The notes under the pieces were generated by a model. That model ran no database searches. It was given only the letters and a program-made list of their open reading frames with translations, and was not told where the DNA came from. From positions 1 through 64,000 of the forward strand of contig JAJVHY010000018.1 of assembly GCA_022072455.1 (NCBI GenBank): 64,000 bases of DNA. The letters run 5' to 3'. This document shows, in pieces, positions 4,891 through 59,527 of this stretch. Each line of letters begins with the position of its first letter. Positions within the stretch are counted from its first letter, which is position 1. This stretch comes from Verrucomicrobiia bacterium (GTDB lineage Bacteria; Verrucomicrobiota; Verrucomicrobiia; Palsa-1439). The position numbers were made by a program, and so were the translations under genes.

Positions 4891-6800
<1,910 letters not shown>

Positions 6801-6801
6801 G

Positions 6802-7479
6802 TTATTTCACCATGCCGATCTGCACGGCGAGCGGGATTGAGATGTAGCCGATGAACAACCCGACCGCCACGATCTTGGCCAGGCAATCAATCCGTTCCAC
6901 GTAGGCCTCATTTTTCAAGCCGAGGGATTGGAACATCGCGCCGATGCCGTGGCTCAGGTGGAAACAGAGCAGCCCGACGCTGATGACGTAGAAGCTGACC
7001 ACGGACGGACTCGAGAATCCAAGCACTATCATCCGGTAAACATCGTGGCGACCGAGATCATCGTGCAAGTTCCGGTATTCGGGATGAATCGTCAGCAATG
7101 TGTAATGAGCGAGGTGATAGATGATGAAACTCAGAACGATCAACCCGCTGACTACCATCGTTCGCGAAGCGAGGGTGGCTTTGACGGCGCGTTTGACGGC
7201 GTATTCCTGATCGCGGGCTTGCATGTTTTCGATAGCCAACGCAATTCCGACGCAGAAGTGGACGGTGACCATGGCCAACAATCCCAAGCGCGCGCCCCAG
7301 AGTAGTTCCGGGGTGGACTTCAGGAAGTGAGCGTATTTGTTGATCGCGTCAGGGCCGAGGAAGACCTGGAGGTTGCCGAGCATATGCATGACGACAAAGC
7401 CAAACAGGCCGAAGCCGGTAAAGGCCATCAGGTATTTCTTGCCGAGCGACGACTTAGCCAGCCGCAATAGGGGACTCAT
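6802..7479 (-). CDS. sdhC: succinate dehydrogenase cytochrome b558 membrane anchor
   Basis: SdhC (225 aa) is the single, five-helix membrane anchor typical of type B complexes, holding two b-type hemes and the quinone site. Candidate axial histidines sit in [24 protein letters not shown] and [11 protein letters not shown], each in a hydrophobic helix. It heads the sdhCAB operon. The region upstream (7480-7527) is short and another minus-strand gene ends at 7528, so the sdh message may begin further upstream. Confidence 0.92.
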
Positions 7480-7527
7480 CTGCGAGTTGTGTTACAGAAA
7501 GCGTGAGGGGAAGGAAAGCAGAATTTT

Positions 7528-8199
7528 CTACAGGGCCGCAATTCGGCGGACTTTTTCCCGGTAATCCAGCTTTCGGAACTTGCGAATTTCGCTGGTGCGG
7601 CGTTTGGGCGTCAGGCTGTCGAGATGCTTCACATACCGGCGCCCGAGCCGGTTGCTCTCCCGGTATCGCTCCACCAACTCCGGTTCGTCGTAGTTGAAGC
7701 GTTCGGAATCAAACAGGCATGCCTTTAACCAGCGTTTGTCAGCCGCGTGGACTTTCTTGTCTGTGTTGAAGAACGCACAGTACATCTGCAGGATCAGATA
7801 AGAGTCCACTTTCGCCTGCAGTTCGAGACCGCGGACGAACGCTTCCGAGTAGATATCGCGGTGCCCTTCGAGATATTTCAGCGACGCATGCACGGCATGA
7901 TCCAGTTCCTCCAGAAAGACCATGAACGGCAGGATATTGTTGTCCGTCAACCCGCACTGCGGGTTCTCGACTTCCAAGGCTTCAATCACGCTCGGCTGGT
8001 AATAGATGCCGAGCCGGAGTTTACCATTCGCGACGCGAAGAAAGGTCCGCCCGAGATTGGAAATCTGACCAGCCGCGGTGCCGCTCATTTCCGCCAACTC
8101 ATCGTGCCGGCGTGTGTCCAAAAGAAACTCCTCGAAGTTCACACCGGTCACGCCATACGTGTGTTCCAAGAGCGATTGGATTTCGTGCAGCAGTGTCAT
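7528..8199 (-). CDS. conserved hypothetical protein with EExDHxxH motif
   Basis: This encodes a 223-aa soluble protein of unknown function. The middle contains VFLEELDHAVHASLKY (about residues 98-113) and then FVRGLELQAKVDSY. The acidic/histidine pattern E-E-x-D-H-x-x-H plus a downstream E is what a helical metal site could look like, but I cannot name a family. The C-terminus is strongly basic (RRTSEIRKFRKLDYREKVRR). I chose ATG 8199, not the in-frame codon 18 bp upstream, because it overlaps the TGA of the preceding 60-aa ORF as ATGA. It lies 48 bp upstream of sdhC on the same strand. Confidence 0.75.
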   Translation of the reverse strand: MTLLHEIQSLLEHTYGVTGVNFEEFLLDTRRHDELAEMSGTAAGQISNLGRTFLRVANGKLRLGIYYQPSVIEALEVENPQCGLTDNNILPFMVFLEELDHAVHASLKYLEGHRDIYSEAFVRGLELQAKVDSYLILQMYCAFFNTDKKVHAADKRWLKACLFDSERFNYDEPELVERYRESNRLGRRYVKHLDSLTPKRRTSEIRKFRKLDYREKVRRIAAL

Positions 8200-8378
8200 G
8201 GTTGCTTCTTCAGGCACAAAAGCCTGTCGGCCCTGGTGCGGAAAACTTCCGCCAGTCCGGTTACTTCGGTGAGGAGCTGGGCGAGATAAACCGTCGGTGT
8301 TTCCATCAGTGATTTCGCGACAAATGCGAAATCACCAGCCGTCAGCCACTCGCGATTATTGGTATTACTGGCTAGCAT
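8196..8378 (-). CDS. small 60-aa ORF coupled to the next gene
   Basis: This is a short ORF starting MLASNTNNREWL and ending LLCLKKQP. Its stop overlaps the start of the 223-aa gene by an ATGA junction, the coupling used many times in this window between genuine operon partners. Residues 13-50 look like two amphipathic helices. There is no signal peptide. I recognise no family. It could be a small partner protein or a coupling leader peptide. Confidence 0.5.
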   Translation of the reverse strand: MLASNTNNREWLTAGDFAFVAKSLMETPTVYLAQLLTEVTGLAEVFRTRADRLLCLKKQP

Positions 8379-8485
8379 ATAACAATTTACAGTTACTCAA
8401 ATGAGCAGCATCAGTGCCATCTCTCAAGGGTGACAGAAGGCAGTAGTTTATTGGTTCCCAGGGCTATTGACGCTGTGCTCGCATT

Positions 8486-10489
8486 GTGGTGTCTTGTGTT
8501 GCAATGAGTGTGACGCGGCTGCCATATCGCGGCGTCAACCGGCAATTGTGGCGGTTCTGCCAGTTTTGCCTATGCCTTCTTGGTGGACTCTTGCCGGCGG
8601 TGGTGGCGCAGGAGTTCAATCCAAACATTCTCCGCGTCCAATCCTTTCCGCTGAATCCGTATGTTGCGGTGCTCGATGGGCAATGGGAGGGTATCCGCGT
8701 CGCCTCGGATGGCAGTTGTTATTTCGGAAGTTCGACTCACGATAACCGGCAGGGGGCAGCATTTTTCCGGTACGAACCGACGACACGCACCCTGACACTA
8801 TTGGCACCCGATCTATCGACGATCTGTGGTGAAGATCCGAGTATCTTGCCGCCGCAAGGCAAACTGCATAGCGACATCACCGAGCATAACGGCTGGCTCT
8901 ATTTTGGTATGCACTTGGGTAACTACTGGGATGAAGCCTACACGGCGTTTACCGGCGGCCACATGCTCGGCTACGAAATGGCCACCGGTCAGTGGCGCGA
9001 CTTTGGTGTCATCCGCTCCAATCACACCATTTACGGTGCCGTTGGGATCGACCGGGTGCGGAACAAGGCGATCGTGTACACACTTCGTTGGTGGGGATCG
9101 CCGGTCGGGAGTTATCTCGACTCGATAAACCTGACCACTGGTGCGCGAACAGCCCTCGCCGGCATCCCGTATGGCGGCGGCGCCTTTTACCCGTTTGTGG
9201 ACCAACGCGGCGATTGTTGGATCAGTCAGGCCACTGATAGTGCGTCGCTCATGTGTGTGCGCTCGGCGACCGGCCAGGTTGACCGGTGGACAAATGTCCT
9301 GCCGGAAAGTGGACTGGGGAGTGGCCGGTTCTGGGAATGGGCCGAGGCTTTGGACGGTGACCGGTGTGTGTTCAAGCTCGCCGGTGGCCAGTACCTCCAC
9401 ACCTTCAACGCCGCCGCGGCTGGGGCCAATCCATCGAATGCCATAACCGCACTGCAGAACATCGGTCCGACTGGCGCCGGTCATGTGGTGGGCGGTGACC
9501 GGGTTTATTACATACAGCGAGCCAACCGGCAGGTTGGATGGCAGGAGTATCAAGACTTCCACTTGTTGAGCGCCGCTCTGAACACCAACGTTTTTCCGGC
9601 AATTATTGATCACGGTTTGATTGCCGATCAGAATGGGCGGCGTGTTTGGCGCAGCCACGCATTGGCCGCCGACCGGCAGGGCCGGCTTTTCATGGTTGGC
9701 GATTGGTGGTTGCTCCCTGGCGAACAAGGGAGTTCCACCGGCACGCTCCGTCACGTGGACGGTCCCGGTACGAACTATACTGCCCTTGTGCGTGGGCAAT
9801 TCTTCGCGCTGGTCGAGATGTTACCGCTGGTCACAAATCAGCCACCCAACCAGACAGTCTACGTCGGCTCCAATGTCACTTTCCATGCGGGTGTGGCCGG
9901 GTATGCGCCGCTGGCTTTCCAGTGGCGGCACAACGGAACCAATATTGCTGGCGCAACGACGTCCGCCCTGACACTGAGCAATGTGCAAACGGCCGACGCC
10001 GGCAATTACGATTTGGTTATCACCAATGTGCTTGGCGCAACGACCAGCGCCGTGGCGCGGTTGACCGTGACGTGGCCGGACAGTGTTGGTGATGGAATCC
10101 CTGACGTGTGGCGGGCCCAGTACTTCGCTGATGTCGATCCAAGCGGCGCGACCACCAACCACCGGTCCTGCGCGACCTGTGACGCCAGTCATACCGGCCA
10201 GGATAACCGGTTCAAATATGTGGCCGGGATTGACCCGACGAACACCACGGCTGTCTTCCACCAGCAACTTGCCAGCGTACCGGGGCAGCCGGACCAGATG
10301 CAGTTGACTTTCGCTCCGCGCTGGCCGGATCGAAGTTACGTGCCGGAGTACAGTTTGGACTTGGTGGATGGCGGCTACGCGCCTTTGACGAACTGCTCAA
10401 CCAACGACAACGGGACGTGGCGTACCATTACCGACTTGAGTGCAACTGGGAGTAAAAAGTTCTACCGGCTCAAGATCACGTATCCATGA
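8486..10489 (+). CDS. secreted beta-propeller-like protein with Ig-like domain
   Basis: This is a 667-aa exported protein. A long N-terminus leads into a hydrophobic segment, QFCLCLLGGLLPAVVAQEF, with cleavage likely near AQ; an alternative start is 8504. Residues 45-440 are strand-rich with repeated G-x-x-Y/W-G patterns and no catalytic motif, resembling a kelch/SMP-30-style propeller. An Ig-like domain follows (about residues 447-532, with FQWRHNGTNIAGAT and DAGNYDLVITN). The tail has a DSVGDGIPDVWRAQYF segment and a YVAGIDPTN motif, typical C-termini of large secreted verrucomicrobial proteins. A surface or periplasmic binding role is inferred. Confidence 0.8.
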   Translation: MVSCVAMSVTRLPYRGVNRQLWRFCQFCLCLLGGLLPAVVAQEFNPNILRVQSFPLNPYVAVLDGQWEGIRVASDGSCYFGSSTHDNRQGAAFFRYEPTTRTLTLLAPDLSTICGEDPSILPPQGKLHSDITEHNGWLYFGMHLGNYWDEAYTAFTGGHMLGYEMATGQWRDFGVIRSNHTIYGAVGIDRVRNKAIVYTLRWWGSPVGSYLDSINLTTGARTALAGIPYGGGAFYPFVDQRGDCWISQATDSASLMCVRSATGQVDRWTNVLPESGLGSGRFWEWAEALDGDRCVFKLAGGQYLHTFNAAAAGANPSNAITALQNIGPTGAGHVVGGDRVYYIQRANRQVGWQEYQDFHLLSAALNTNVFPAIIDHGLIADQNGRRVWRSHALAADRQGRLFMVGDWWLLPGEQGSSTGTLRHVDGPGTNYTALVRGQFFALVEMLPLVTNQPPNQTVYVGSNVTFHAGVAGYAPLAFQWRHNGTNIAGATTSALTLSNVQTADAGNYDLVITNVLGATTSAVARLTVTWPDSVGDGIPDVWRAQYFADVDPSGATTNHRSCATCDASHTGQDNRFKYVAGIDPTNTTAVFHQQLASVPGQPDQMQLTFAPRWPDRSYVPEYSLDLVDGGYAPLTNCSTNDNGTWRTITDLSATGSKKFYRLKITYP

Positions 10490-10502
10490 TGGATTTGGGC
10501 TT

Positions 10503-10538
10503 TTGCCGGGCGACTGCTTCGAGTAAAAATCCCGGCAA
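10503..10538. promoter_or_regulatory. inverted repeat just before malQ
   Basis: TTGCCGGG (10503-10510) and CCCGGCAA (10531-10538) form a perfect 8-bp inverted repeat with a 20-base loop, ending two bases before the malQ ATG. It could fold in the transcript over the ribosome-binding region or act as a weak terminator for the upstream gene. There is no T-run after it. Confidence 0.35.
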
Positions 10539-10540
10539 GC

Positions 10541-12253
10541 ATGAAACTTTCTCCTGACCAAAAGCTGGCCGGCATTTTGTGCCCGGTATTTTCGATTCGC
10601 ACCGAAAACGATCTCGGCATTGGTGATACCGATGGCGTTCGCCAGATGATTGATTGGTGTCATAAGCACGGCATTTCGATGTTGCAGGTGCTGCCGATCA
10701 ACGAAACCAGTGACGATAACTCGCCGTACAATGCCATCAGTTCGCTCGCATTGGATCCGACAACGATTGCGATAACGACGGAACACCTGCCGGAGTTGAC
10801 GGAGACCGATTTCAAGAAGATCGCCCCCGAAACCATCCTCAATGACCTGCGGTCGGGAGCCGTGAAGTACACCAAGGTCAAAGACCTCAAACGGAAACTG
10901 CTGCGCGCGGCGTTTGATTCGTTTCTCACCAAACACTGGAACAAAAAGTCGGAACGCGGCGATGCGTTCCGGCAATTCTTGGATGAAAACGGTGACTGGA
11001 TTTCGGATTATGCGCTGTTCCGGGTACTGATGGAGGATTACAACAACTGGCCGACTTGGGACGAATGGCCGCTCGACCGGCAAAACCCAAAGAAAGCTTG
11101 GACATGGATTTTATCGTTACCGGCCAAGCAACGGGAGGAGTATGCCGACCGGATTCTGTTTAACGCCTACATCCAATGGGTCGCCTTTGACCAGTGGATG
11201 AAAGTCAAAGCACACGCCACGCGCAAAAAGGTTTACCTGATGGGCGACATCCCGTTCGGCGTGAACCGGTACAGCTCCGACGTGTGGGGTAACCGGCCGA
11301 TTTTTGATTTGGATTGGAGTGGGGGTTGTCCACCCGAAAAAGTCTTCAAGGTTGACCCGTTCACCGAGAAGTGGGGGCAGAACTGGGGCATCCCGCTCTA
11401 CAACTGGGTAGTCTCCCGGCAGCGCAACCACGATTGGTGGCGCATCCGCTGTGGCAACATTCACAAGGTTTTTCACTTTTTCCGCATTGACCACGTGCTT
11501 GGGTTCTACCGGATCTACTCCTTCCCGTGGCAGCCGAAGCACAACGCGAAGTTCCTGCCCATGACCGAAGCGGAAGCGGCCCAGCATACCGGCGGGAGAC
11601 TGCCGCATTTCCAGCCCTATGCCGATGACACCAAAGAAGGTGCAGCTTTCAACCAGAAACAAGGCGAAGAGTTACTGGCGATGGTTGTCGAGGCCGCCGG
11701 TGACACGGCGGTCGTGGCAGAAGACCTCGGGGTCGTCCCGGCCTACGTGCCGGAATCGCTCGAACGCCTGAAAATTCCCGGTTACAAGATTCCGCATTTC
11801 CTGCGCGAGAAAGATCACAGTTTTGTCGACGGGAAGACCTACCCGCGCCTTTCACTCGCCACGCCGGCCACTCACGACCATGATCCCATCGCCAAGATGT
11901 GGCGGGAGCTCTGCGAGCGTGCAGCCCGCGGCGATGACGCTGCCCGGTATGACCTGAAATGCTGGATGAAATACTGCGGACATGCGCAGGCTGAACCGCC
12001 CCGGGAATTCAATGACCATGCTCACGAATTAATCCTGCGGGGCGTACTCCATTCGAATTCGTGGCTCGCGGTCTTGATGATTACCGACGTGTTTGGTACC
12101 GAAGACCGCTTCAATGTGCCGGGTGCCGTTAGTGAAGGAAACTGGAGTTACCGGCTCGGGAAGACAGTCGCGGAACTTGATCGGGAGGCGCACCTCCTCC
12201 ACAAGACGCAGATGTTTTCGCGGTTGATCAAGGAAGCACACCGGCTGCCATGA
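10541..12253 (+). CDS. malQ: 4-alpha-glucanotransferase (GH77)
   Basis: MalQ (570 aa) transfers alpha-1,4-glucan chains and works in maltodextrin and glycogen turnover in the cytoplasm. GH77 hallmarks are present: GDIPFGVNRYSSDVW, the nucleophile Asp317 in FRIDHVLGFYRI, the acid/base Glu394 in VVAEDLGVVPAYV, and ATHDHDPIAKMW. The length fits the short bacterial form without N-terminal carbohydrate modules. Its stop overlaps the next gene's start (ATGA at 12250-12253). No obvious Shine-Dalgarno is visible, but an inverted repeat sits right before the ATG. Confidence 0.95.
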   Translation: MKLSPDQKLAGILCPVFSIRTENDLGIGDTDGVRQMIDWCHKHGISMLQVLPINETSDDNSPYNAISSLALDPTTIAITTEHLPELTETDFKKIAPETILNDLRSGAVKYTKVKDLKRKLLRAAFDSFLTKHWNKKSERGDAFRQFLDENGDWISDYALFRVLMEDYNNWPTWDEWPLDRQNPKKAWTWILSLPAKQREEYADRILFNAYIQWVAFDQWMKVKAHATRKKVYLMGDIPFGVNRYSSDVWGNRPIFDLDWSGGCPPEKVFKVDPFTEKWGQNWGIPLYNWVVSRQRNHDWWRIRCGNIHKVFHFFRIDHVLGFYRIYSFPWQPKHNAKFLPMTEAEAAQHTGGRLPHFQPYADDTKEGAAFNQKQGEELLAMVVEAAGDTAVVAEDLGVVPAYVPESLERLKIPGYKIPHFLREKDHSFVDGKTYPRLSLATPATHDHDPIAKMWRELCERAARGDDAARYDLKCWMKYCGHAQAEPPREFNDHAHELILRGVLHSNSWLAVLMITDVFGTEDRFNVPGAVSEGNWSYRLGKTVAELDREAHLLHKTQMFSRLIKEAHRLP

Positions 12254-13149: not shown

Positions 13150-13571
13150 AGGGCGGCCAACACTTCGGCCGCATGGCCTTTGGGTTTTACCTTGGTGAAA
13201 ATCTTGGTGACGACACCGGCGGGGTTGATAATGAATGTGGTCCGGACGATACCCATGTATTTGCGACCGTACATGGATTTTTCCTGCCAGACACCGTAGG
13301 CCAAGGCAATCTTGTGGTCTTCGTCGGGAATGAGTTTAAATGGCAGCGAAAATTTCGTGGCGAATTTGTCGTGAGATTTCTGCGAATCGGGACTGACACC
13401 GAGGACGACGGCTTTCCTTTTCTTGAGCGCCGGGTAGGCGTCGCGAAGCTCACAGGCTTCGACCGTGCAGCCGGTCGTGTCATCTTTCGGGTAGAAGTAG
13501 AGCACAACTGTTTTGCCTGCGTGGGCTGTGAGTTGGGGGAATGCCGGGGCTTTGGTGCCTTCGTTGATCAT
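13146..13571 (-). CDS. bcp: thioredoxin-dependent peroxiredoxin, Bcp/PrxQ type
   Basis: This 141-aa peroxidase reduces hydrogen and alkyl peroxides with thioredoxin. The peroxidatic Cys35 lies in KDDTTGCTVEAC and the resolving Cys40 five residues later, the PrxQ pattern; YGRKYMGIVRTTFII follows as expected. I chose ATG 13571, overlapping the nth stop (ATGA), over an upstream in-frame start that would run into nth. The N-terminus is about ten residues shorter than usual: APAFPQLTAHAGKTVVLYFYP lacks part of the beta-hairpin normally preceding the active-site strand. Confidence 0.92.
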   Translation of the reverse strand: MINEGTKAPAFPQLTAHAGKTVVLYFYPKDDTTGCTVEACELRDAYPALKKRKAVVLGVSPDSQKSHDKFATKFSLPFKLIPDEDHKIALAYGVWQEKSMYGRKYMGIVRTTFIINPAGVVTKIFTKVKPKGHAAEVLAAL

Positions 13572-14212
13572 GATTTGACTCCGTGTTGCGGGCAGAGTGC
13601 CAGAAGCTCGCAGTGGGTGCAATCGGGTTTGCGCGCAGCACACCGGCGCCGGCCATGCCAGATGAGGAGATGCGAGAGGTCAATCCAATCATCGTGCGGA
13701 ACGAGATCCATGAGATCGCGTTCAATCTTTTCAGGAGTGGTTTGCCGGGTGAGACCGAGACGTTGGGAGAGGCGCGCGACATGGGTGTCGACGACAATCC
13801 CTTCGGCTTTTCCAAAGGCGACGCCGAGGACGACGCTGGCAGTTTTGCGACCGCAGCCGGCCAGTTGGGTGAGTTCCGCCATTGTTTCCGGAACGCGGCC
13901 GGCATGTTTCTCGGCAATAGTCCGGCAGCAGTTGCGAATGGATTTGCCCTTATTTTTGTAGAAGCCGGTGGATTTGATCAGCTCCTCCAATTCGCCCGGA
14001 GGTGCGGCAGCGAAGTCGGCGGCTGACTGGTATTTGGCGAAGAGGGCGGGGGTGACTTGGTTGACGCGGACGTCAGTGCACTGCGCGCTGAGGATGGTGG
14101 CGACGAGTAGCTGGAGTGGGGTTTGGTGGTTGAGTTCGCAGCGCACGTCGGGGTAGGTGGCCCGGAGCCGAGAAATTATTTTGCCGGTAAGTTTCCGCTT
14201 GGCAGCATTCAT
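13568..14212 (-). CDS. nth: endonuclease III
   Basis: This DNA glycosylase/AP lyase (214 aa from ATG 14212; a GTG at 14239 would add nine residues) removes oxidised pyrimidines. The helix-hairpin-helix LAGCGRKTASVVLG carries the catalytic Lys, and VVDTHVARLSQRLGL carries the catalytic Asp. The C-terminal [4Fe-4S] ligands follow C-x6-C-x2-C-x5-C in CAARKPDCTHCELLALC. It overlaps bcp by ATGA, giving a two-gene oxidative-damage unit. It is divergent from fdxA, with 57 bp between them. Confidence 0.95.
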   Translation of the reverse strand: MNAAKRKLTGKIISRLRATYPDVRCELNHQTPLQLLVATILSAQCTDVRVNQVTPALFAKYQSAADFAAAPPGELEELIKSTGFYKNKGKSIRNCCRTIAEKHAGRVPETMAELTQLAGCGRKTASVVLGVAFGKAEGIVVDTHVARLSQRLGLTRQTTPEKIERDLMDLVPHDDWIDLSHLLIWHGRRRCAARKPDCTHCELLALCPQHGVKS

Positions 14213-14269
14213 GCGGCACAGTATATCACAAGGTGTCACCCCAATTTTAACCAGAGGAAATCATAGACT

Positions 14270-14731: not shown

Positions 14732-16294
14732 CTACGAACTACCGGTGGGCCGGCCAGGAGTTGCGACTGGCATGGCGGGGAGATTTTTCTTTTCCATCTC
14801 CTGATAGATCGGCAAATACCGGTAGTAAACCTCGAGCATCAGACAAGCTAATGCGGTGCTGTAGACTGGGCCGTAGGGATTCTTTTCACCGGGCGGATCC
14901 CAGTGACCGTCGGACGCTTGTTTGGCGACCAGAACTTTGCGCATTTCTGTATTCCATTGAGTCCAGTAGCTTCCGCCGGCCTGGAACATTGCCTGGGTGA
15001 TGTAATACCACGGGTAAAATGGAGTGCCGTGGTTGCCGGGTGGCTTGTCCCAGTCCACCTTTTTGTCCTTGTATAAGTCGAGTGATTTCTTAAGTCGCCG
15101 GTCGGCGTGGTGTCCGAGAAACTGCTGGCAAAGAATTCCGATTGCCGTCGTCGCGTAGCCATGTCCAGGATTCGAATAGCCAAAGCCACCATTCTCAGCG
15201 TGCATGTTCCAGAGATACTCGGAGGCCTTTTCAAAGGCTTCGTCAGGAACGGAAATATTGGCTAATTTTGCTGATTTCAAGCCCATGACCAACCACCCGG
15301 TAACCGATGTATCCGCATCAGCCGAAAGCGGACTGTAGCGCCAGCCGCCTTGGTCAGCGGGCTTGGTCTTTTTGACTTTTTGAGATTGGACAACGGCGTT
15401 CACCGCGCGGTCGAGGGGCTCGCGCACCAAGGGCGATTGGGTCATACCGTAGGCTTCGGCCAGAGCGAGGAGCACAGCACCTTGGGCGTACATGCTTTTG
15501 CTTTTGACAATTCCGTCGGAGCCGACAACTGTCACGAGGTAGCTGAGGGCACGGGAGACGGTCGGGCCAAACTCCTCGGAATCCGGTGTTTCTCCATGCC
15601 CGAGAAAGCATAATGTCGCGAGTGCCGAACTGGCTTCCTTGGAGTAGCCGGCCCACGAACCGTCTTTCGTTTGTTGTTCTTTCAGCCAGCGCAGGGCGGC
15701 AAGAACGGCGCGCTCCGTGTCGCCGCTACCACCACCTTGTTTGATTTTCTGCGCGCGCATTGGGCCGACCCGGTGGCCGAAACCCCCGCCGCCCGGGCCA
15801 CGCACACCGGCTGTGCCAATCTTGCCTTCGCCAAAACCCATCGTTGGGGCCGCGACTCCACCCAACCCACTGCCTTGGAGGCGGGCCACGGCCGTCGCCG
15901 AATCACTGACAACCCCAATCACTTCCTGGACTTGGCTGTCCACCGCCGTCCGATCCACCGCGCTAATACTCGCCTTGTATTCGGTGGGCGTTGTGCCGGC
16001 TGCCGTGGGAATCCCCCCGGGACCTTTGCCAGGGGTGCCGCCCCCGCCGCCGAGGGTGGGGCCACTGTATTCGAAGTCCCGCAACGCAGCGAACGGGTCC
16101 ATGTCGTCTTGGACGGGGGGGGGAGGCATTGCGCCGGAAAAGGTGGCAATGATCTTGGGGATTGCCCCGGCAATCTCAATGGTCCCGAGAATGAACAAAA
16201 TCAGCACGTGAAACATGACGGCAATGACGAAATAACGCATCAGCGTCGTCAAACTCATCAACCACGTCAGAAACTTTTTGGATGCGACCTTCAT
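14732..16294 (-). CDS. membrane-anchored alpha/alpha-toroid protein, TonB-like architecture (copy 1)
   Basis: This is a 520-aa protein. A single TM anchor (about residues 19-42) contains RYFVIAVMFHVLILFILG, with His29 placed like the conserved TM histidine of TonB; the position four before it, Ser in TonB, is Ala25. A PPPP and Gly/Pro-rich linker follows (about 55-185). Residues 190-505 form repeats of the prenyltransferase/squalene-cyclase type (LRWLKEQQTKDGSWAGY, GGWRYSP, GGFGYSNPGHGYATTA, SDGHWDPPG). The cyclase motif DxDD is replaced by DADTS, so terpene cyclisation is unlikely. It is the last gene of the ExbB-ExbD-ExbD-TPR operon. Codons 1-182 nearly duplicate those of the upstream gene. 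Confidence 0.8.
   Translation of the reverse strand: MKVASKKFLTWLMSLTTLMRYFVIAVMFHVLILFILGTIEIAGAIPKIIATFSGAMPPPPVQDDMDPFAALRDFEYSGPTLGGGGGTPGKGPGGIPTAAGTTPTEYKASISAVDRTAVDSQVQEVIGVVSDSATAVARLQGSGLGGVAAPTMGFGEGKIGTAGVRGPGGGGFGHRVGPMRAQKIKQGGGSGDTERAVLAALRWLKEQQTKDGSWAGYSKEASSALATLCFLGHGETPDSEEFGPTVSRALSYLVTVVGSDGIVKSKSMYAQGAVLLALAEAYGMTQSPLVREPLDRAVNAVVQSQKVKKTKPADQGGWRYSPLSADADTSVTGWLVMGLKSAKLANISVPDEAFEKASEYLWNMHAENGGFGYSNPGHGYATTAIGILCQQFLGHHADRRLKKSLDLYKDKKVDWDKPPGNHGTPFYPWYYITQAMFQAGGSYWTQWNTEMRKVLVAKQASDGHWDPPGEKNPYGPVYSTALACLMLEVYYRYLPIYQEMEKKNLPAMPVATPGRPTGSS
15749..16294 (-). repeat. 546-bp near-identical block, copy 1
   Basis: This is the first 182 codons of the copy 1 toroid gene. 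Aligned without gaps to 17427-17972 (offset 1678), I count five scattered single-base differences, all synonymous, plus four differences within codons 4-6. Similarity ends abruptly at 15749, beyond which the two genes diverge as ordinary paralogs. The pattern points to gene conversion or a recent partial duplication. Confidence 0.9.
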
Positions 16295-16412
16295 TTGGGC
16301 GGGTGATCCTTGTTAGCGTTGTTCATCACTAGTGCTAGAGACACTGTTCCGAAGAATTTGTTCCAACTTTTCTTGTTGGTTACGCTTGCAGATTACCGGT
16401 TTGGCGGAAAAG

Positions 16413-17972
16413 TCAGGAGCGGCTCGGTGACTGACCAGGATTTGAAACGGGCATGGCCGGGAGGCTTTTCCGCTCCATCTCTTGATAAATGGGGAGGTAG
16501 CGATAGTAAACTTCCAACATCAAACAGCAGAGGGTAGTCGAGTAAACGAGCCCGTGGCCACTCTCATTACTGCCGGCTGGCAATCCCCAACTACCGTCGG
16601 AGTTTTGGTTCTTCACCAGGGTCTCGCGCATTTGCTTGTTCCAGTGTTCCCAGTAGGAGCCGCCGCCTTGAAACATGGCTTGGGTGGCGTAGTACCAGCC
16701 GTAAAGTGTATGACCTTTGGCTGTTGGCTCTTTCCAATCCACTTTATGCTCTTTGTAGAAATCGAGCGCTTTCTTGAGGCGTTTGTCACTACCATGCCCG
16801 AGAAATTGTTGGCAGAGAATCCCCACCGCCGTGGTGGCCATTCCCCGACCGGGGCCGGCGTAGCCAAACCCACCGCTTTCCGCATACATATTCCACAAAT
16901 ATTTGCTGGCCATTTCAAATGCATCCTCCGGCACTGAGAGGCCAGCCAATTTGGCGGATTTGATCCCCATCACCAGCCAACCGGAGACGGAAACATCGGC
17001 ATCGTTGGAAGTGGGAGTGTACCGCCAGCCACCCTCGTCAGCACTGGAGGCTTTTTTAACCTTTTGTGAGAGGAGAATTGCGGCCACTGCGCGTTCCAAT
17101 GGCTCACGGACTTGCGGGGATTGCGTCATCCCGTAGGCTTCTGAGAGAGCAAGGGTCACGGCTCCTTGTGAATACATGTTCCGGCTTTTGACGATCCCTT
17201 GCGGTCCCACAACTGTCACGAGATGACTGAGGGCTTTCGAGACCGTCGGACCAAACTCGTCGGAGTCCGGTGTTTCACCGTGCCCGAGAAAACACAATGT
17301 CGCCAATGCTGAGAATGCCTCATGACCTTTCCATGAACCATTGGGACTTTGTTGTTCTTTCAGCCAGCGCAACGCCGCAAGAACGGCACGTTCAGTATCT
17401 TGGCTGCCCTTGTTTTTTGAAATCATCTGCGCGCGCATTGGGCCGACCCGGTGGCCGAAACCTCCGCCGCCCGGGCCACGCACACCGGCTGTGCCAATCT
17501 TGCCTTCGCCAAAACCCATCGTTGGGGCCGCGACTCCACCCAACCCACTGCCTTGGAGGCGGGCCACGGCCGTCGCCGAATCACTGACAACCCCAATCAC
17601 TTCCTGGACTTGGCTGTCCACCGCCGTCCGATCCACCGCGCTAATACTCGCCTTGTATTCGGTGGGCGTTGTGCCGGCTGCCGTGGGAATCCCCCCGGGA
17701 CCTTTGCCAGGGGTGCCGCCCCCGCCGCCGAGGGTGGGGCCGCTGTATTCGAAGTCCCGCAACGCGGCGAACGGGTCCATGTCGTCTTGGACGGGGGGGG
17801 GAGGCATTGCGCCGGAAAAGGTGGCAATGATCTTGGGAATTGCCCCGGCAATCTCAATGGTCCCGAGAATGAACAAAATCAGCACGTGGAACATGACGGC
17901 AATGACGAAATAACGCATCAGCGTCGTCAAACTCATCAACCACGTCAGAAACTTTTTGGAGATGACTTTCAT
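16413..17972 (-). CDS. membrane-anchored alpha/alpha-toroid protein, TonB-like architecture (copy 2)
   Basis: This is a 519-aa paralog of the following gene with the same plan: TM anchor with His29, PPPP then Gly-rich linker, and a C-terminal toroid of cyclase-like repeats (LRWLKEQQSPNGSWKG, GGWRYTP, GGFGYAGPG, SDGSWGLPAG). Its DADVS also lacks the DxDD acid motif. The C-terminal domain is clearly diverged from copy 1, while the first 182 residues differ only at residue 4. I chose ATG 17972 because it overlaps the TPR gene's stop (TGATG) and matches the copy 1 start; the frame stays open four codons further. The two proteins may present different binding faces on one common anchor. Confidence 0.8.
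   Translation of the reverse strand: MKVISKKFLTWLMSLTTLMRYFVIAVMFHVLILFILGTIEIAGAIPKIIATFSGAMPPPPVQDDMDPFAALRDFEYSGPTLGGGGGTPGKGPGGIPTAAGTTPTEYKASISAVDRTAVDSQVQEVIGVVSDSATAVARLQGSGLGGVAAPTMGFGEGKIGTAGVRGPGGGGFGHRVGPMRAQMISKNKGSQDTERAVLAALRWLKEQQSPNGSWKGHEAFSALATLCFLGHGETPDSDEFGPTVSKALSHLVTVVGPQGIVKSRNMYSQGAVTLALSEAYGMTQSPQVREPLERAVAAILLSQKVKKASSADEGGWRYTPTSNDADVSVSGWLVMGIKSAKLAGLSVPEDAFEMASKYLWNMYAESGGFGYAGPGRGMATTAVGILCQQFLGHGSDKRLKKALDFYKEHKVDWKEPTAKGHTLYGWYYATQAMFQGGGSYWEHWNKQMRETLVKNQNSDGSWGLPAGSNESGHGLVYSTTLCCLMLEVYYRYLPIYQEMERKSLPAMPVSNPGQSPSRS
17427..17972 (-). repeat. 546-bp near-identical block, copy 2
   Basis: This is the partner of 15749-16294, with no indels. It covers the TM anchor and linker of the copy 2 toroid gene and ends exactly where the two proteins begin to differ (after GPMRAQ). 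Confidence 0.9.
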
Positions 17973-20929
17973 CAGGGGGCGCAAAGTTTGCGGATTTTTT
18001 CTTTGGCCTGATCCACGAAAGCGCCAGCGGAATAGCGTTTCAGGTAGCTCTGGAAGACGGAACAGGCTTGGGCGGCATTGCCCAGTGCTTCATGGCATTC
18101 GCCGGTCCGATAAGCCGCTTCGTCCGACATCGGTCCCACTGGGGCAAACAACAGCCGCGCATAATATGCCAGCGCCGTCTTCTTGTTGTCTTTTGTTTTC
18201 ACTGGATCTGGGGACACCATGTTGAAGAAAATGTTCCCGAGTCGATGGGCGGCTTCGAACGCCGGATCGCCCTTGGAATCACGCAGCACGTTGCTGTAAA
18301 GCGGCACGGCGGCCTCGATTCGATTTTTTGCTTCGTACACTTTCGCGAGAGCCAATTCTGCATCCGACCGCGGTACATGTTGAGTATCTTTCAGTGCCTT
18401 TTCCAACGCTTCTTGGGCCGCATCGTACTGTTTCAAGCCGAGCAAGGCTTGCCCAAGGCCGACTTCCGCCAGGGTCTGCACTTTCTGGTCATTGCCGGCG
18501 GTGGCGAGCGCGGCGTCATAGCTTTCCTTGGCTTGGGCGAACTTGTCCGTTCGTAACGACACATTCCCAATCGTCAGAAAGCCCGAAGCCGGTAACTCGG
18601 ATTTGTTCGGATCAGCCAACAGGCGGACGACCAACGCATTGGCCCGGCTGATGTTTTTCTCGGTCAGGGCGATTTCCGTCATGCCGATGACACAGGCGTG
18701 GCGAATGGCGGTATTGGCGGCGTATTGTTGCGCGAGTGCTTCGAGTTTGGTGTTGGCTTCGGCTGACTGCCGGTTCTTGGTGTAGACCCGGGCGATTTGT
18801 CCGACTAACGTCCGGGCGGCAAGCGGGTCATTCGAAAACTTGCCAAGGAATTGTTCGAGATCTGCGGCCACGGTCTTTGGATCATTGCGGAGTTCAAGAA
18901 TCGCGGCGATACGGAGAACGGCGGCGACCGCCGCGTTACGGGCGTCGTCGGACAGGGTTTCTGCAGCGAGGGCGCGATTGACGATGTCCTGATACGCTGG
19001 GATGGCCTCGTCGTAGCGTTTGGTGTTTTCGAGTTCGGTGGCGATGGCGTAGAGCGCATCACCGACACGGGGGTGATTGGGATACTTCTGTACGAAGTGC
19101 CGCAGGGCTTCGACCACTTCCGCCATTTTGGGTGGTTTCATGGAGGCGTACGAGGTCGCTATCTCCCATGCTGCAAATGGGGCAAGGTCGTGGTCGGGAT
19201 ATTTTTCGACCAAAGTTTTGTAGGCGGCAATGGCGGCATCCAGGCGTTCGGCCGAAATATTATTGCGGGCGATTTGGTACCATGCCTCCGGCAACTCTGG
19301 CTGGCTGGGCCACTTCTTGATGAACTCCTCGAACATGGCGATGGCCTTGTCGTAGTTCGCGGCGTCGTACGCGCCGAGATAGCTGTAGAGATAGCCCATC
19401 CGGAACGTCACGGTTGGGATCTTGTCGTACTCCGGATATTTCGCCCGGATTTCCTCATAGGCTTTGATACCAGCCTCAAGATTGGGGCGGGCGACATTGG
19501 TGTCACCGGAACGATTGGCGATCTCATAGTGGGTTAGGCCCAAAAAGAACAATGCATCGGGACGGATTTTTGAGTCAGTCCGTTTGGTAGTGAAACCGGT
19601 GAACGCCTCCAGTGCTTTGGGAAAGTCTTCCAAGTTGAAGTGGCAGGTGGCAATCCGGAACTCAATGAGTTCGATGGTGGCTTGGTTTTTGGTGCTCTCC
19701 AAGGCCGTCACATAGCCGGCCAAGGCTTCCTTGTAGCGTAACTGCTGGAATTGCGACTCGGCCTGCATCATCTGAACGCTTTCCGTCCCCCCGGCATTCG
19801 GATACTTCTTTTTGAATTCTTCGGAGAGCTCGCCGGCTTTCTTGCTTTGGCCCCGTTGCGTAAGTGTTTGAATCAAGCCAAACCAGATCTGCTCGGCTGC
19901 CCGGTCATTCGGATACCGGTCCAGCAGATATTGGTAAACAACGCTGGATTCTTCCGGCATTTCCAGCGCCTGATAACAGTTGGCAACCCGGAACAGTGCC
20001 AGGACCCGTAAGTCAGGGCGGTCTTTGATTTGTGTCATCAGCCGGCGCACCGCATCGGTCCGGCGTTGCCAGACTTCCAAACCGAGCTGCCCCCGGACCG
20101 CGTTCAACTGGTCAATATCCCGCTGGAGGACTTCGAGTAACGCGGCCTTCGAGCGCACTCCCTTGAAATAGCCGATGGCATCCCGGAATGCCTTGTTCGC
20201 CTCTTCCGTCTTGCCCTCTCGACTTAAGGCTTCACCCCGATTGAACATCGCTTCGGCCGCCAGATAGAGCGCCTCGGTGGCGCGGGGATTGGAGCGCTGT
20301 TTGGTGATTTCCCGGTACACTTTATTGGCGCTCTGGAAATCTTTTTCCTCAGTGTAGACTTGTCCGAGCAGGAACAGCGCATCGAGTTGGACACCGGCAT
20401 TTTCGAGATATTTCTGCTGGACAATGCGAATGATGGTCTTGGCGCCGTTGGTGTTGCCGGCTTTGTAGGTCGCCCACGCTTCGCCGAGCATGGCTTGGGG
20501 GAGCATTTCGTGGGCGGGGAATTGCTGTTGGAATTTCCGATAGAGTTCCACCGCTTTGGCCGCATCCTGCATTTCCCGGTAGCACTCCGCCTGTTTCAAG
20601 AGGGCTTCCGCAACCAAAACATTCCCGGGAAAACTAGTCATCAGCCGCTGGAAGACGTTGATCGCTTCCTGATATCGGGTCTGATTGGCCCAGCACCACC
20701 CCTGGTAGTAAATCGAATCCGGGACGGCCAAACTAAACGGAAACTCTTTTTCGAACTTCTGAAACGCCGCAAGTGCTTTGGGCCAATCGCCTTCACTATA
20801 CGCAGTCTGAGCTTCCTGAAAACCGACTTGTGCGGTTCGGATTGTTGGTGGAGCCTTGGGAGCTTGCCCATAAGAAGTCAAACTCGCCAAGAACATCCCG
20901 GCGATAAGCAGGCGCAGTGTGTTGATCAT
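17972..20929 (-). CDS. exported TPR-repeat protein of the Exb-type operon
   Basis: This is a 985-aa protein with a signal peptide (MINTLRLLIAGMFLASLTSYGQ) and tetratricopeptide repeats over nearly its whole length, with units such as AQTAYSEGDWPKALAAFQKF and AIAMFEEFIKKWPSQPELPEAWYQIA. TPR solenoids bind partner proteins; in Tol-Pal systems the TPR protein CpoB/YbgF plays a periplasmic coordinating role, and a similar role is inferred here. I chose ATG 20929, which overlaps the upstream ExbD stop (ATGA); a longer frame exists but lies inside exbD. Its stop overlaps the first toroid gene. The size, several times that of CpoB, is unusual. Confidence 0.85.
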   Translation of the reverse strand: MINTLRLLIAGMFLASLTSYGQAPKAPPTIRTAQVGFQEAQTAYSEGDWPKALAAFQKFEKEFPFSLAVPDSIYYQGWCWANQTRYQEAINVFQRLMTSFPGNVLVAEALLKQAECYREMQDAAKAVELYRKFQQQFPAHEMLPQAMLGEAWATYKAGNTNGAKTIIRIVQQKYLENAGVQLDALFLLGQVYTEEKDFQSANKVYREITKQRSNPRATEALYLAAEAMFNRGEALSREGKTEEANKAFRDAIGYFKGVRSKAALLEVLQRDIDQLNAVRGQLGLEVWQRRTDAVRRLMTQIKDRPDLRVLALFRVANCYQALEMPEESSVVYQYLLDRYPNDRAAEQIWFGLIQTLTQRGQSKKAGELSEEFKKKYPNAGGTESVQMMQAESQFQQLRYKEALAGYVTALESTKNQATIELIEFRIATCHFNLEDFPKALEAFTGFTTKRTDSKIRPDALFFLGLTHYEIANRSGDTNVARPNLEAGIKAYEEIRAKYPEYDKIPTVTFRMGYLYSYLGAYDAANYDKAIAMFEEFIKKWPSQPELPEAWYQIARNNISAERLDAAIAAYKTLVEKYPDHDLAPFAAWEIATSYASMKPPKMAEVVEALRHFVQKYPNHPRVGDALYAIATELENTKRYDEAIPAYQDIVNRALAAETLSDDARNAAVAAVLRIAAILELRNDPKTVAADLEQFLGKFSNDPLAARTLVGQIARVYTKNRQSAEANTKLEALAQQYAANTAIRHACVIGMTEIALTEKNISRANALVVRLLADPNKSELPASGFLTIGNVSLRTDKFAQAKESYDAALATAGNDQKVQTLAEVGLGQALLGLKQYDAAQEALEKALKDTQHVPRSDAELALAKVYEAKNRIEAAVPLYSNVLRDSKGDPAFEAAHRLGNIFFNMVSPDPVKTKDNKKTALAYYARLLFAPVGPMSDEAAYRTGECHEALGNAAQACSVFQSYLKRYSAGAFVDQAKEKIRKLCAP

Positions 20930-21375
20930 GGGTTGGCCGCCGCTGGTGCCGCAGCCGCCACATCCGCCAATGGACGGAAGGCCACGTTGGTCAGATTTGC
21001 TTGGGCACAAGCGTCGAGTGCCGAAATCACCGCCTGATAGGAAGTCTCGGGGTCAGCCTCGATGACGATCGTCGCTTCCTGGCCGATCGAAGCGAGCTGT
21101 CGCATGGCATCGGTCAAGGTGAAGCTGTCATACCCGGGGGCGCCATTGACCGAGATATCATTCGTACTGCGGACGTGGATGTTGAGATCAAGCGGAACTT
21201 TCGTCGGTGCCACTGCGCTGGCTTTGGCAACGAGCGGCAGCCGAGAGTCCAAACGCTTTTCAACGGCGCTGAACGAGGAGAATGACATGTAGAAAATGAG
21301 CAGAATCAAAATTGTGTCGATCATCGGGATGATCTCGACGCGCCCGCGTTTCACGTTCCGGCGGGCGAGTTTCAC
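20926..21375 (-). CDS. exbD: ExbD/TolR-family protein (second of a pair)
   Basis: This 149-aa proton-channel subunit has a short cytoplasmic basic start (MKLARRNVKRGRVEI), one TM helix with the essential Asp in IPMIDTILILLIFYM, and a periplasmic domain of about 100 residues ending in an Ala/Pro-rich tail. It overlaps the preceding ExbD by ATGA and the TPR gene by ATGA. The first 30 residues almost match the neighbouring ExbD, but the periplasmic domains differ strongly, so the two probably form a heteromer with separate periplasmic contacts. Confidence 0.9.
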   Translation of the reverse strand: MKLARRNVKRGRVEIIPMIDTILILLIFYMSFSSFSAVEKRLDSRLPLVAKASAVAPTKVPLDLNIHVRSTNDISVNGAPGYDSFTLTDAMRQLASIGQEATIVIEADPETSYQAVISALDACAQANLTNVAFRPLADVAAAAPAAANP

Positions 21376-21794
21376 TTCACTTCCTCAGTGGTGAAGGTAA
21401 TGTTGGCCAGGCGGGCTTTCGCGCAGGCTTTCATGAAGGCGCTCAAATCGGCGTAAGTCATATTGCGGTCGCCGCGGAGCACGACCAGCATGTCAGCATA
21501 CCGGGGGTCGCTCATCCGGATGGCATTCAGCTCGCCGGGCAATTCCTCGATGGGGATTGTCCGCTTGTTCAGAATGATCTTGTCCTTGCTGAACATGTTG
21601 AGCACGACTTTGGCCGGACCACCTTCCTTGTCATCAAGACCGGCTTTCGATTTCGGGAGTCGGAGACTGGCTTCTTTGGAGGCTTCGGCGAACCGCGAAA
21701 ACGTCATGTAGAAAATCAACAAGATCACAATCGTGTCGATCATCGGAATGATCTCCACGCGTCCGCGTTTAATCTTGCGCCGCTTCAGCTTCAT
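21372..21794 (-). CDS. exbD: ExbD/TolR-family protein (first of a pair)
   Basis: This 140-aa ExbD-like subunit has the channel Asp in IPMIDTIVILLIFYM, followed by a periplasmic domain (residues 45-135). It lies 10 bp after the ExbB-like gene and overlaps the second ExbD by ATGA. In the known motors, ExbD/TolR works with a pentameric ExbB/TolQ ring to convert proton flow into movement of a TonB or TolA partner. Here the downstream partners are a TPR protein and two toroid proteins. Confidence 0.9.
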   Translation of the reverse strand: MKLKRRKIKRGRVEIIPMIDTIVILLIFYMTFSRFAEASKEASLRLPKSKAGLDDKEGGPAKVVLNMFSKDKIILNKRTIPIEELPGELNAIRMSDPRYADMLVVLRGDRNMTYADLSAFMKACAKARLANITFTTEEVK

Positions 21795-21804
21795 GGCTGA
21801 CGCT

Positions 21805-22566
21805 TTATCCCTCGTGCGATTGTTTGATGAGCACCATGATCTCGCTGAGGCCTTTTTCCAAGTCCATCAGGATCTGCTCTTTCTGAGCTGTCAAGTAATT
21901 ATACGCGAGAAGGGAGGGCAACGCAACGCCAAGGCCGGCTGCCGTATTAATCAGCGCCTCGGAAATACCGCCAGCCAGCGCGGCCGGATCGCTCATGCCT
22001 TTTTGCGAGACGATGGCAAAGGAACGAATCATGCCGATTGTCGTTCCCAACAAACCCGCCAGTGGACACATCGTGACCATCGAATCCAACATCGGTAGCA
22101 ATTTTTCCAAGCCGATCAATTCCCGCGTGACTTCACCTTGCACAAGCTGCTCGACGTGTTCGGGGTGGTACCCATCGCGGGCGGCCGACAAGGCCACCCG
22201 GAAAACACGCCCGGCCATCCCCGGTTCAGTTTCGATGGCTGTCAAGGCATCGGAAAAGGAACTACTGGCTTTGACTTTATCAATGATGCCCTGGGTATTG
22301 CCTTGGCATTTCCGGTAATAGAAGAAGCGTTCAGGGATGATCGTGAAGGTGAAGATCGAGGCCGCCACCAGGAAGAAGAACACGTACGGCGGAGTAATCG
22401 CCACCTCCCAAACCATTTCCAAGGCTGTCTTGCCGCCATGCGCTTCCGCCGCCGCCGCCGGCGCCTCGCCGCCGGCCTCCTGAGCGGAGACCGACACCCC
22501 CGCCGCCAAAACGGCGAAGCACAGAGCCAAGACAATGCGACGGATACGACGTGATATCAGATGCAT
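21805..22566 (-). CDS. exbB: ExbB/TolQ/MotA-family proton channel protein
   Basis: This 253-aa protein has a cleavable-looking signal peptide (MHLISRRIRR then a hydrophobic stretch to VSAQ), a short Ala/Glu-rich periplasmic segment, and three TM helices. The conserved TM2/TM3 motifs are CPLAGLLGTTIGMIRSF and ALINTAAGLGVALPSLLAYNYL. I chose ATG 22566 because GGAG lies 7 bases upstream; the frame is open 12 codons further. It opens the motor operon and lies 95 bp after pnp on the same strand. Confidence 0.92.
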   Translation of the reverse strand: MHLISRRIRRIVLALCFAVLAAGVSVSAQEAGGEAPAAAAEAHGGKTALEMVWEVAITPPYVFFFLVAASIFTFTIIPERFFYYRKCQGNTQGIIDKVKASSSFSDALTAIETEPGMAGRVFRVALSAARDGYHPEHVEQLVQGEVTRELIGLEKLLPMLDSMVTMCPLAGLLGTTIGMIRSFAIVSQKGMSDPAALAGGISEALINTAAGLGVALPSLLAYNYLTAQKEQILMDLEKGLSEIMVLIKQSHEG

Positions 22567-57724: not shown

Positions 57725-58354
57725 ATGTTGACCATCATGCGCCAAGGAGGGCCGTTGATGTGGTTGATCCTGCTCAACGGGATCATTGCCGCCCTGATCT
57801 ATCTGGAAAAGTGGTTTCACTTTCATCGCGCCCACATCAACACCTCGGATTTTCTCAACGGCATCCGCAATGCCCTCAAACGTGGCAACGTCATCGAATC
57901 CATCGCGCTCTGTGATGAAACGCCCGGCCCCGTCGCCGAAGTCGTCAAGGCTGGCATCACCAATCGCGATCGGCCGCGCGAAGAAATCCGTGAGGCGATG
58001 GATGACGCCGCGCGCGTGGAAATCGCCCGGCTCGAACGTCGGTTGGTAGTCCTCGCCACCATCGCGCAAATCACGCCGTTGCTCGGTTTTCTTGGGACCG
58101 TCTTCGGGATGATCAGCATGTTCAAAGTCATCCAGCTCCAGCAACTCCCCAGTCCCGGCCAACTGGCCGGCGGCGTTTGGGAAGCGCTTTTGACAACGGC
58201 TGGCGGTCTGGTTGTCGCCGTGCCGGCGTACGTCGCGTATAACTACCTCACGAGCCGCGTGCAGAACATTGTCCTCGATATGGAACGCGCCGCCAACGAG
58301 ATGATCAGTTTCCTCTCCCGCAAAGACAACGGCAACGGCGAGCCGGTGAAATGA
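57725..58354 (+). CDS. exbB: ExbB/TolQ/MotA-family proton channel protein (second operon)
   Basis: This is a 209-aa protein without signal peptide, with three TM helices. LIYLEKWFHFHRAHI follows TM1; TM2/TM3 carry ITPLLGFLGTVFGMISMF and EALLTTAGGLVVAVPAYVAYNYL. It is shorter than the ExbB at 21805. It opens a three-gene unit and overlaps the ExbD gene by ATGA. Confidence 0.92.
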   Translation: MLTIMRQGGPLMWLILLNGIIAALIYLEKWFHFHRAHINTSDFLNGIRNALKRGNVIESIALCDETPGPVAEVVKAGITNRDRPREEIREAMDDAARVEIARLERRLVVLATIAQITPLLGFLGTVFGMISMFKVIQLQQLPSPGQLAGGVWEALLTTAGGLVVAVPAYVAYNYLTSRVQNIVLDMERAANEMISFLSRKDNGNGEPVK

Positions 58355-58773
58355 CGTTCAAAACCCATGTGTCCATCGCCAACGGCCGCATCGACCCCGC
58401 GCCGATGGTGGACATCGTGTTCCTGCTGCTGATTTTTCTCGTGTTGAGTTCCCCGTTCGTCCTGCAACCCGGCTACGGCCTCGTCGAGTTGCCGACTGGC
58501 AAAGGCGATGTTGCGACGTTGCAGGAATTGGTGCTGAGCGTCTCCCGCGACAATGTGATCCACTTCAATGCCCAACTCGTGACGCTCGACAAATTGCCGG
58601 ACCACCTGCGCCGGGCCGCGCGCGAAGCCCGTAACGCCAGCCTCGTCGTCAAGATCGACCGGCAAGTCTCCTACGAGACCATTAACAAAATCTTTGCGAT
58701 CGCATTCGACGCCGGCATCGCGACCGTCAATTTGGCGACTCGGCCCGCCGTCCCGGTCGTCCCCGAGAAGTGA
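58351..58773 (+). CDS. exbD: ExbD/TolR-family protein (second operon)
   Basis: This is a 140-aa ExbD with the channel Asp in APMVDIVFLLLIFLVLSS and a periplasmic domain ending VNLATRPAVPVVPEK. The cytoplasmic start (MTFKTHVSIANGRIDP) differs from the MKLxRR starts of the other two ExbDs in the window. It is followed 4 bp later by the TonB-like gene. Confidence 0.9.
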   Translation: MTFKTHVSIANGRIDPAPMVDIVFLLLIFLVLSSPFVLQPGYGLVELPTGKGDVATLQELVLSVSRDNVIHFNAQLVTLDKLPDHLRRAAREARNASLVVKIDRQVSYETINKIFAIAFDAGIATVNLATRPAVPVVPEK

Positions 58774-58777
58774 CGTC

Positions 58778-59527
58778 ATGGCGTTGCCCCGCTTTCGCGT
58801 GACTGAGCGGCAGGTGTTGATGGCCTTGATGGGGGCGACCGTGCTCGCCGTTGCCAGCGCGATTTTGGGCAGTGGATTCTTTACCGGCAGCGGTCAGAAA
58901 CTCGAACCGGTCACCAGCGCCAACATCCGCTGGGGCCGCGACCCCGAAGGCATCCGGCAAGTCTTGGCGGAATATTTTGATCCAAGCTTGATGTCGTTAC
59001 CCAGTCCGTTCGGTTTCTCGCGTGGGCCGTGGGAACACTTGGCCCCGCCGGTAGCCAGCCGCTATCAGCCAGTCATCCCGGCCGCGTTTCTGGGTAACCC
59101 TGGCCCCGGCCTTGTCCCGGCGTTGTTGCCGCCGCCGGTGTTGGCGACAGTCGTTCTGGCTGGTTTGGAGCGCCCCGCGCTGCCAGATCTGACCGAAGCG
59201 GCGGTGCAAGTCAACGGTCCGGTCATCACCAACTCGGTGATTCAATTGGGTGGGGAATTGGCCGGCAGGCGTCTGCTTCACTTGCCGGCGATTCCGTTGG
59301 CGCCGGCCACGTTGGCTGTGCGCCGGTCGTTAGTGATGCTGGCCGTTGATCCGGCTGGGCGGGTGCAACACGCGATCTTGGAGCGCGGCTGTGGCAGCGA
59401 AGCGCTCGATACCGCAGCGGTCGAGTTGACCCGGCAACTGCGGTTTGAGCCAGAGGCCAGCGCGGATGCGTTGGCATTGACGTGGGGGACGGCGCGGTTC
59501 AGTTGGGCGTATGCGGCCGGGAATTGA
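58778..59527 (+). CDS. TonB-like protein of the second Exb operon
   Basis: This is a 249-aa protein with an N-terminal TM (VLMALMGATVLAVASAILGSGFF), a Pro-rich middle (residues 60-150) and a C-terminal domain that resembles TonB_C: SLVMLAVDPAGRVQHAILERGCGSEALDTAAVELTRQLRFEP. The TM has no His at the TonB position. ATG 58778 lies 4 bp after the exbD stop. With ExbB and ExbD it makes a compact, more conventional TonB-type motor. Confidence 0.75.
   Translation: MALPRFRVTERQVLMALMGATVLAVASAILGSGFFTGSGQKLEPVTSANIRWGRDPEGIRQVLAEYFDPSLMSLPSPFGFSRGPWEHLAPPVASRYQPVIPAAFLGNPGPGLVPALLPPPVLATVVLAGLERPALPDLTEAAVQVNGPVITNSVIQLGGELAGRRLLHLPAIPLAPATLAVRRSLVMLAVDPAGRVQHAILERGCGSEALDTAAVELTRQLRFEPEASADALALTWGTARFSWAYAAGN

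Follow-up and report, generated by a model that had tools for sequence, protein, structure and literature searches.

A probable TonB/TolA-like transducer with an alpha/alpha-toroid head in a two-ExbD motor operon of the Verrucomicrobiota

The classical transducers that carry the force of ExbBD and TolQR motors through the periplasm are TonB and TolA. In 2025 they were joined by vWA heads, found in operons of Tichowtungia and other PVC bacteria (Williams-Jones et al. 2025, PMC12204202); in these, a tolQ gene is accompanied by two distinct tolR genes, a TPR gene and a transducer that joins an SHLS anchor to a vWA head. Cryo-EM places the Ser-His pair of the SHLS signature in contact with ExbB/TolQ, and the fourth position of the signature, a Ser, is weakly conserved in TonB itself (PMC12215075). 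Here, we describe an operon that matches the vWA-headed operons in gene set, SHLS His anchor, linker and the possession of a non-TonB globular head, but differs in that the head is an alpha/alpha toroid instead of a vWA domain and that two heads share one anchor. It is the same type of machine with another head, and would add the toroid as a further entry to the list of force-transducer heads. Neither of the words "toroid" and "squalene" occurs in the description of the vWA-headed systems (PMC12204202), and the literature searched contains no description of toroid or squalene-like proteins with Exb motors.

The operon consists of six minus-strand genes at 14732-22566 of the window (the whole stretch of 64,000 nucleotides that was analysed), in the order ExbB-ExbD1-ExbD2-TPR-toroid A-toroid B. 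A first-pass annotation of this DNA had proposed six same-strand genes, mostly overlapping by 1-4 bases, and these are present, with overlaps at three of the five junctions (4 bp at ExbD1/ExbD2, 4 bp at ExbD2/TPR, 1 bp at TPR/toroid A) and gaps at the other two (10 bp between ExbB and ExbD1, 118 bp between the toroid genes, in which we found no consensus promoter or terminator). Its naming of the products as an ExbB, two ExbDs, a 985-aa TPR protein and two single-TM toroid proteins is backed for each gene by Pfam and NCBIfam. The arrangement is beyond chance, as all five complete-contig relatives from the same family (L046, L051, L052, L053 and L054) show the same ExbB-ExbD-ExbD-TPR-toroid run; a same-genus contig (L048) carries TPR-toroid at its edge. 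The features are as follows.

21805..22566, minus strand: ExbB/TolQ-type motor subunit, 253 aa, with an N-terminal signal-like extension (PF01618, MotA_ExbB, 3e-30; residues shared with TolQ)
21372..21794, minus strand: ExbD/TolR-type subunit 1 (ExbD1), 140 aa, Asp20 intact (PF02472, 4.9e-19)
20926..21375, minus strand: ExbD/TolR-type subunit 2 (ExbD2), 149 aa from a GTG start, of a distinct subfamily and with Asp20 intact (PF02472, 5.4e-19; alignment)
17972..20929, minus strand: secreted TPR solenoid, 985 aa, about 25 repeats, signal peptide without lipobox (PF13174, TPR_6, 2e-56; AlphaFold2)
16413..17972, minus strand: toroid protein A, 519 aa, with SHLS-type TM anchor, Gly/Pro-rich linker and alpha/alpha toroid (Pfam, alignment, AlphaFold2, PDB matches)
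17886..17888, minus strand: codon of anchor His29 of toroid A, equivalent to TonB His20 and TolA His22 (invariant in alignment; TonB/TolA spacing)
17433..17972, minus strand: anchor and linker tract of toroid A (about 98% nucleotide identity to the toroid B tract, dS 0.05)
16458..17405, minus strand: alpha/alpha toroid domain of protein A, limits approximate (model secondary structure, pLDDT; PDB matches)
16295..16412, minus strand: 118-bp spacer between toroid A and toroid B (no consensus promoter or terminator)
14732..16294, minus strand: toroid protein B, 520 aa, with anchor and linker as in toroid A and a diverged toroid (Pfam, alignment)
16208..16210, minus strand: codon of anchor His29 of toroid B (alignment)
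15755..16294, minus strand: anchor and linker tract of toroid B, homogenised with that of toroid A (nucleotide comparison)
14780..15724, minus strand: alpha/alpha toroid domain of protein B, limits approximate (Pfam match 275-372; alignment)

Alignments with E. coli TolQ and TolR agree with the earlier reading that the channel residues of the motor are intact: Thr175, Glu203, Thr208 and Pro217 of ExbB align with TolQ, which preserves the pore threonines and glutamate, and the transmembrane aspartate Asp20 of both ExbDs aligns with its counterpart in TolR. The two ExbDs represent two subfamilies kept in register across the aligned operons of relatives, ExbD1 being 50-55% identical to the first ExbD of those operons versus 35% to its own neighbour ExbD2. 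Within the ExbB tree, the window's family is represented by a 100/99 clade, separate from the TonB- and Tol-linked ExbBs of the genome. Toroid-linked ExbBs overall fall into a few groups that require three changes; the tree itself does not unite them, and their monophyly is not rejected (p-AU 0.136). AlphaFold2 models the TPR protein as an uninterrupted helical solenoid that spans residues 30-985 (mean pLDDT 88).

Both toroid proteins match SQHop_cyclase_C in Pfam at about 1e-5, borderline to the cut-off, and AlphaFold2 predicts an all-helical toroid at approximately residues 190-490, with pLDDT of 79-96 in most 10-residue blocks. The best PDB matches of the model are single-domain squalene-hopene cyclases (8pak, 8paj) together with GH76 alpha/alpha barrels, and the likeness to squalene-hopene and class II terpene cyclases reaches a Foldseek E of about 3e-6 and a target TM-score of about 0.63. 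Pfam and NCBIfam scans found no TonB_C domain in either protein and one in the separate operon at 57725-59527 (TIGR01352, 2.4e-7), as previously claimed. Over codons 1-181 the two toroid genes share 98.3% nucleotide identity (dN 0.005, dS 0.05); beyond codon 181 protein identity is 71% and dS is saturated. From these comparisons, the shared anchor and linker are best read as a recent gene conversion between older tandem paralogues, after which two heads would dock on one motor. Locus L133 has, independently, two anchored toroids in tandem after ExbB-ExbD-ExbD.

The transmembrane helix of the toroid proteins carries Ala25-x3-His29-x6-Leu36, which fills three of the four SHLS positions, with Ala for the first Ser and Glu at the fourth, and its spacing equals that of Ser16-His20-Leu27 in TonB and Ser18-His22-Leu29 in TolA of E. 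coli K-12. His29 is the sole invariant residue of the helix among 12 same-family homologues, Ala25 and Leu36 being near-invariant, and the AxxxH form with Ala at the first position is also that of the genome's own TolA (FIVAIVLHVAIVGG) and of one of its TonBs (FGFALAAHLALLFFG). When PVC toroid proteins that have a TM and linker and measure at most 800 aa are taken together, 53 of 75 have [ASTGCV]xxxH in the TM, compared to 87 of 422 membrane proteins that served as background from the same loci; the strict form [SA]x3Hx6[LF] occurs in 37 of 75 and 7 of 422, respectively. Position -4 from the His is Ser in 47 and Ala in 21 of the 71 anchors profiled, position +7 is Leu in 38 and Phe in 16, and the fourth position (Ser) is not conserved. 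Some Exb-linked toroids of Lentisphaerae and Kiritimatiellae are without the anchor His (L089, L099, L132). Following the TM, there is a Pro-flanked, beta-prone stretch (IPKIIATF...PPPP) that could be a motor box, the post-TM strand by which TonB/TolA transducers bind ExbD, but its agreement with the published D-box pattern is only partial.

To place the operon in a wider context, GTDB genomes were scanned for toroid relatives blind to Exb genes, and 80 loci were kept, all from Verrucomicrobiota, Planctomycetota, Lentisphaerota, Kiritimatiellota or other PVC as far as named; a search of the phylum with ExbB as the sole query, at a cut-off of 1e-30, proved too strict and matched this genome only. 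A same-strand ExbB or ExbD lies within 6 kb of 34 of the 55 decidable anchored toroids versus 9 of 37 other toroids (Fisher p 6e-4), where chance would give about 1% as estimated from 10 ExbB matches in 4.8 Mb, and a TPR gene is present at 31 of 38 Exb-linked loci. The first-pass annotation had named toroid proteins occurring just as often away from Exb genes as one finding that would overturn it; anchored toroids do not show this (34 linked, 21 not), and linkage of the toroid to ExbB/ExbD and TPR genes recurs across PVC. The 21 anchored toroids with no ExbB or ExbD within 6 kb (38%), among them the orphan copies at L045 and L047, indicate that Exb linkage is not obligatory, comparable to E. 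coli, where tonB lies apart from exbBD. Gene order is TPR-ExbB-ExbD-ExbD-toroid in Lentisphaerae and toroid-ExbB-ExbD-ExbD in the planctomycete L147, and in Phycisphaerae and Opitutae TPR-ExbB-ExbD is followed by a protein of about 1100-1600 aa; the members of this group that were scanned or examined contain PD40 propeller, SHLS-type TM, long linker and toroid in one chain.

The toroid proteins resemble TonB and TolA in their single N-terminal TM with (S/A)x3Hx6L, Pro/Gly-rich periplasmic linker, C-terminal globular domain and ExbB/ExbD partners, but have neither a TonB_C nor a TolA C-terminal domain, a head of about 320 aa compared to about 90, and no fourth-position Ser. We propose that the toroid protein is probably a TonB/TolA-like transducer of a dedicated proton-driven Exb motor, with the toroid as its force-transducing head. 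In such a machine, an ExbB pentamer would surround a pair of ExbD1 and ExbD2, presumably a heterodimer, in a proton-driven 5:2 complex; the toroid protein would dock on the ExbB rim through the Ala25-x3-His29-x6-Leu36 helix, while the ExbDs would take up its proximal linker. The Gly/Pro-rich linker would then transmit force to the toroid, and the toroid may grip a periplasmic partner or one on the outer-membrane/peptidoglycan side, the TPR solenoid of the operon being the most likely candidate for that partner or track. With their common anchor, toroids A and B could act as two heads competing for a single motor. A bolder version, which we regard as unlikely, makes the toroid proteins a PVC-wide third transducer class next to TonB/TolA and vWA heads: the cyclase-like cavity of the toroid would bind a lipid, isoprenoid or glycan, and the motor would actively move or remodel this small envelope ligand and not pull on an outer-membrane protein. 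The proposed coupling is testable directly by a single substitution of the docking His. A toroid head on a TonB-type anchor that recurs beside a TPR partner in Verrucomicrobiota, Lentisphaerota, Kiritimatiellota and Planctomycetota would make the motor-anchor module a general chassis with exchangeable heads, and provides a function hypothesis for many proteins that Pfam and NCBIfam match merely as squalene-cyclase-like.

Since the closest folds of the head are squalene-hopene cyclases and GH76 mannanases, the toroid might instead be a periplasmic cyclase- or glycosidase-like enzyme tethered to the inner membrane, its place in the operon reflecting co-regulation and the motor driving, for example, the TPR protein. 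The window toroids share the alpha/alpha toroid and QW-like repeats with squalene-hopene and class II terpene cyclases (8pak, 1sqc, MstE), Asp326 of toroid A lies in a D-x-S-x2-3-[GC]-W motif present in 108 of 128 PVC toroid ORFs, and the four unanchored toroid genes of the same genome are not Exb-linked. Yet the toroids differ from cyclases in their transducer-type membrane anchor and in the missing DxDD proton-donor motif, replaced by DADV/DADT here and found in only 2 of the 128 ORFs, on which ground we reject a functional class II cyclase. In the model, the invariant Asp caps the start of a helix, where its role may be structural, and a mere tether needs no TonB-type His at the docking position, as most members have, leaving a tethered enzyme distinctly unlikely. 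A gliding or export motor similar to AglRQS or GldLM, in which a toroid transducer drags envelope cargo, is suggested by the two different ExbD-type subunits and the large TPR protein, which recall gliding and T9SS machines. The TPR protein also matches the PorW/SprE profile weakly (4e-26, below the cut-off), but this similarity reflects the shared TPR repeat only, so that a T9SS PorW identity was rejected, and no gliding or T9SS genes were found adjoining the operon; we consider a motility or secretion role very improbable.

The remaining alternative is Tol-Pal or Ton in disguise, with the toroid as a swapped TolA/TonB head serving outer-membrane stabilisation or nutrient import. Its appeal lies in a TolQ/TolR-type motor whose ExbB has TolQ as its nearest profile (9.6e-27), a TPR protein that matches the CpoB/YbgF-type TPR profile, and toroid operons in Phycisphaerae and Opitutae whose transducer is fused to a TolB-like PD40 propeller. 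However, the genome encodes a complete canonical Tol-Pal operon elsewhere (G000:C20), with TolQ, TolR, TolA bearing TonB_2, a PD40 protein (TolB) and an OmpA-type lipoprotein (Pal), as well as TonB_C proteins with their own ExbB and ExbD at C22 and at window 57725-59527, whereas the toroid operon contains no TolB, Pal or receptor gene and its ExbB branch is distinct. We judge this explanation quite improbable. Since a Tol-Pal operon and at least two genes of TonB type exist elsewhere in the genome, the toroid operon does not replace them, and the earlier phrase "in place of TonB" fails for the cell as a whole; the other part of that proposal, a motor-coupled toroid transducer, is well supported, and more strongly than by its original grounds, by the docking His and the PVC-wide Exb/TPR linkage. 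We also considered the Zorya anti-phage system (ZorA/ZorB with ZorC/D/E) and discarded it, as none of the six proteins has a PADLOC match.

The same genome holds a further Exb operon, headed by a DUF4159 protein (L074, G000:C9, 6470-17896), that encodes a 2531-aa TPR protein, ExbB, ExbD, ExbD and a multi-TM DUF4159 protein in one operon, and in Opitutae a DUF4159 operon stands back-to-back with a PD40-toroid operon (L091, 11523-21000). These operons are similar to the toroid operon in uniting a giant TPR protein, ExbB and two ExbDs, but differ in the multi-TM DUF4159 protein and in an ExbB from a separate clade. With such a relative in the same genome and in Opitutae, motor and TPR protein seem to form a module with exchangeable partners. 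We did not accept the DUF4159 proteins as proven SHLS transducers, SxxxH being present in L074 and absent in L091.

Several minor observations accompany these results. In the TonB_C operon of the window (57725-59527; ExbB, ExbD and the TonB_C protein), the likely true start of the TonB_C protein is an in-frame ATG at about 58778, and its TM (MALMGATVLAVASAILGSGF) is without the SHLS His, unlike the genome's other TonB and TolA. In one genus of the window's class (L062, L063, L080), TM-toroid genes occur as tandem pairs or triplets that have neither Exb neighbours nor the xxxH motif. Two Phycisphaerae loci (L098 and L102, both at 6578-11020) encode two toroid domains per chain with an SHLS-type TM before the second, and PD40-like propeller repeats occur on both sides of the first toroid (L098). 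The endonuclease III gene (nth), at 13568-14239 of the window, remains close to the toroid gene in several of the family's genomes, with or without the Exb operon, and orphan SHLS-anchored toroid genes of the same family adjoin the pyruvate dehydrogenase genes aceE-aceF-lpd (L045, 7524-9038; L047, 7857-9401).
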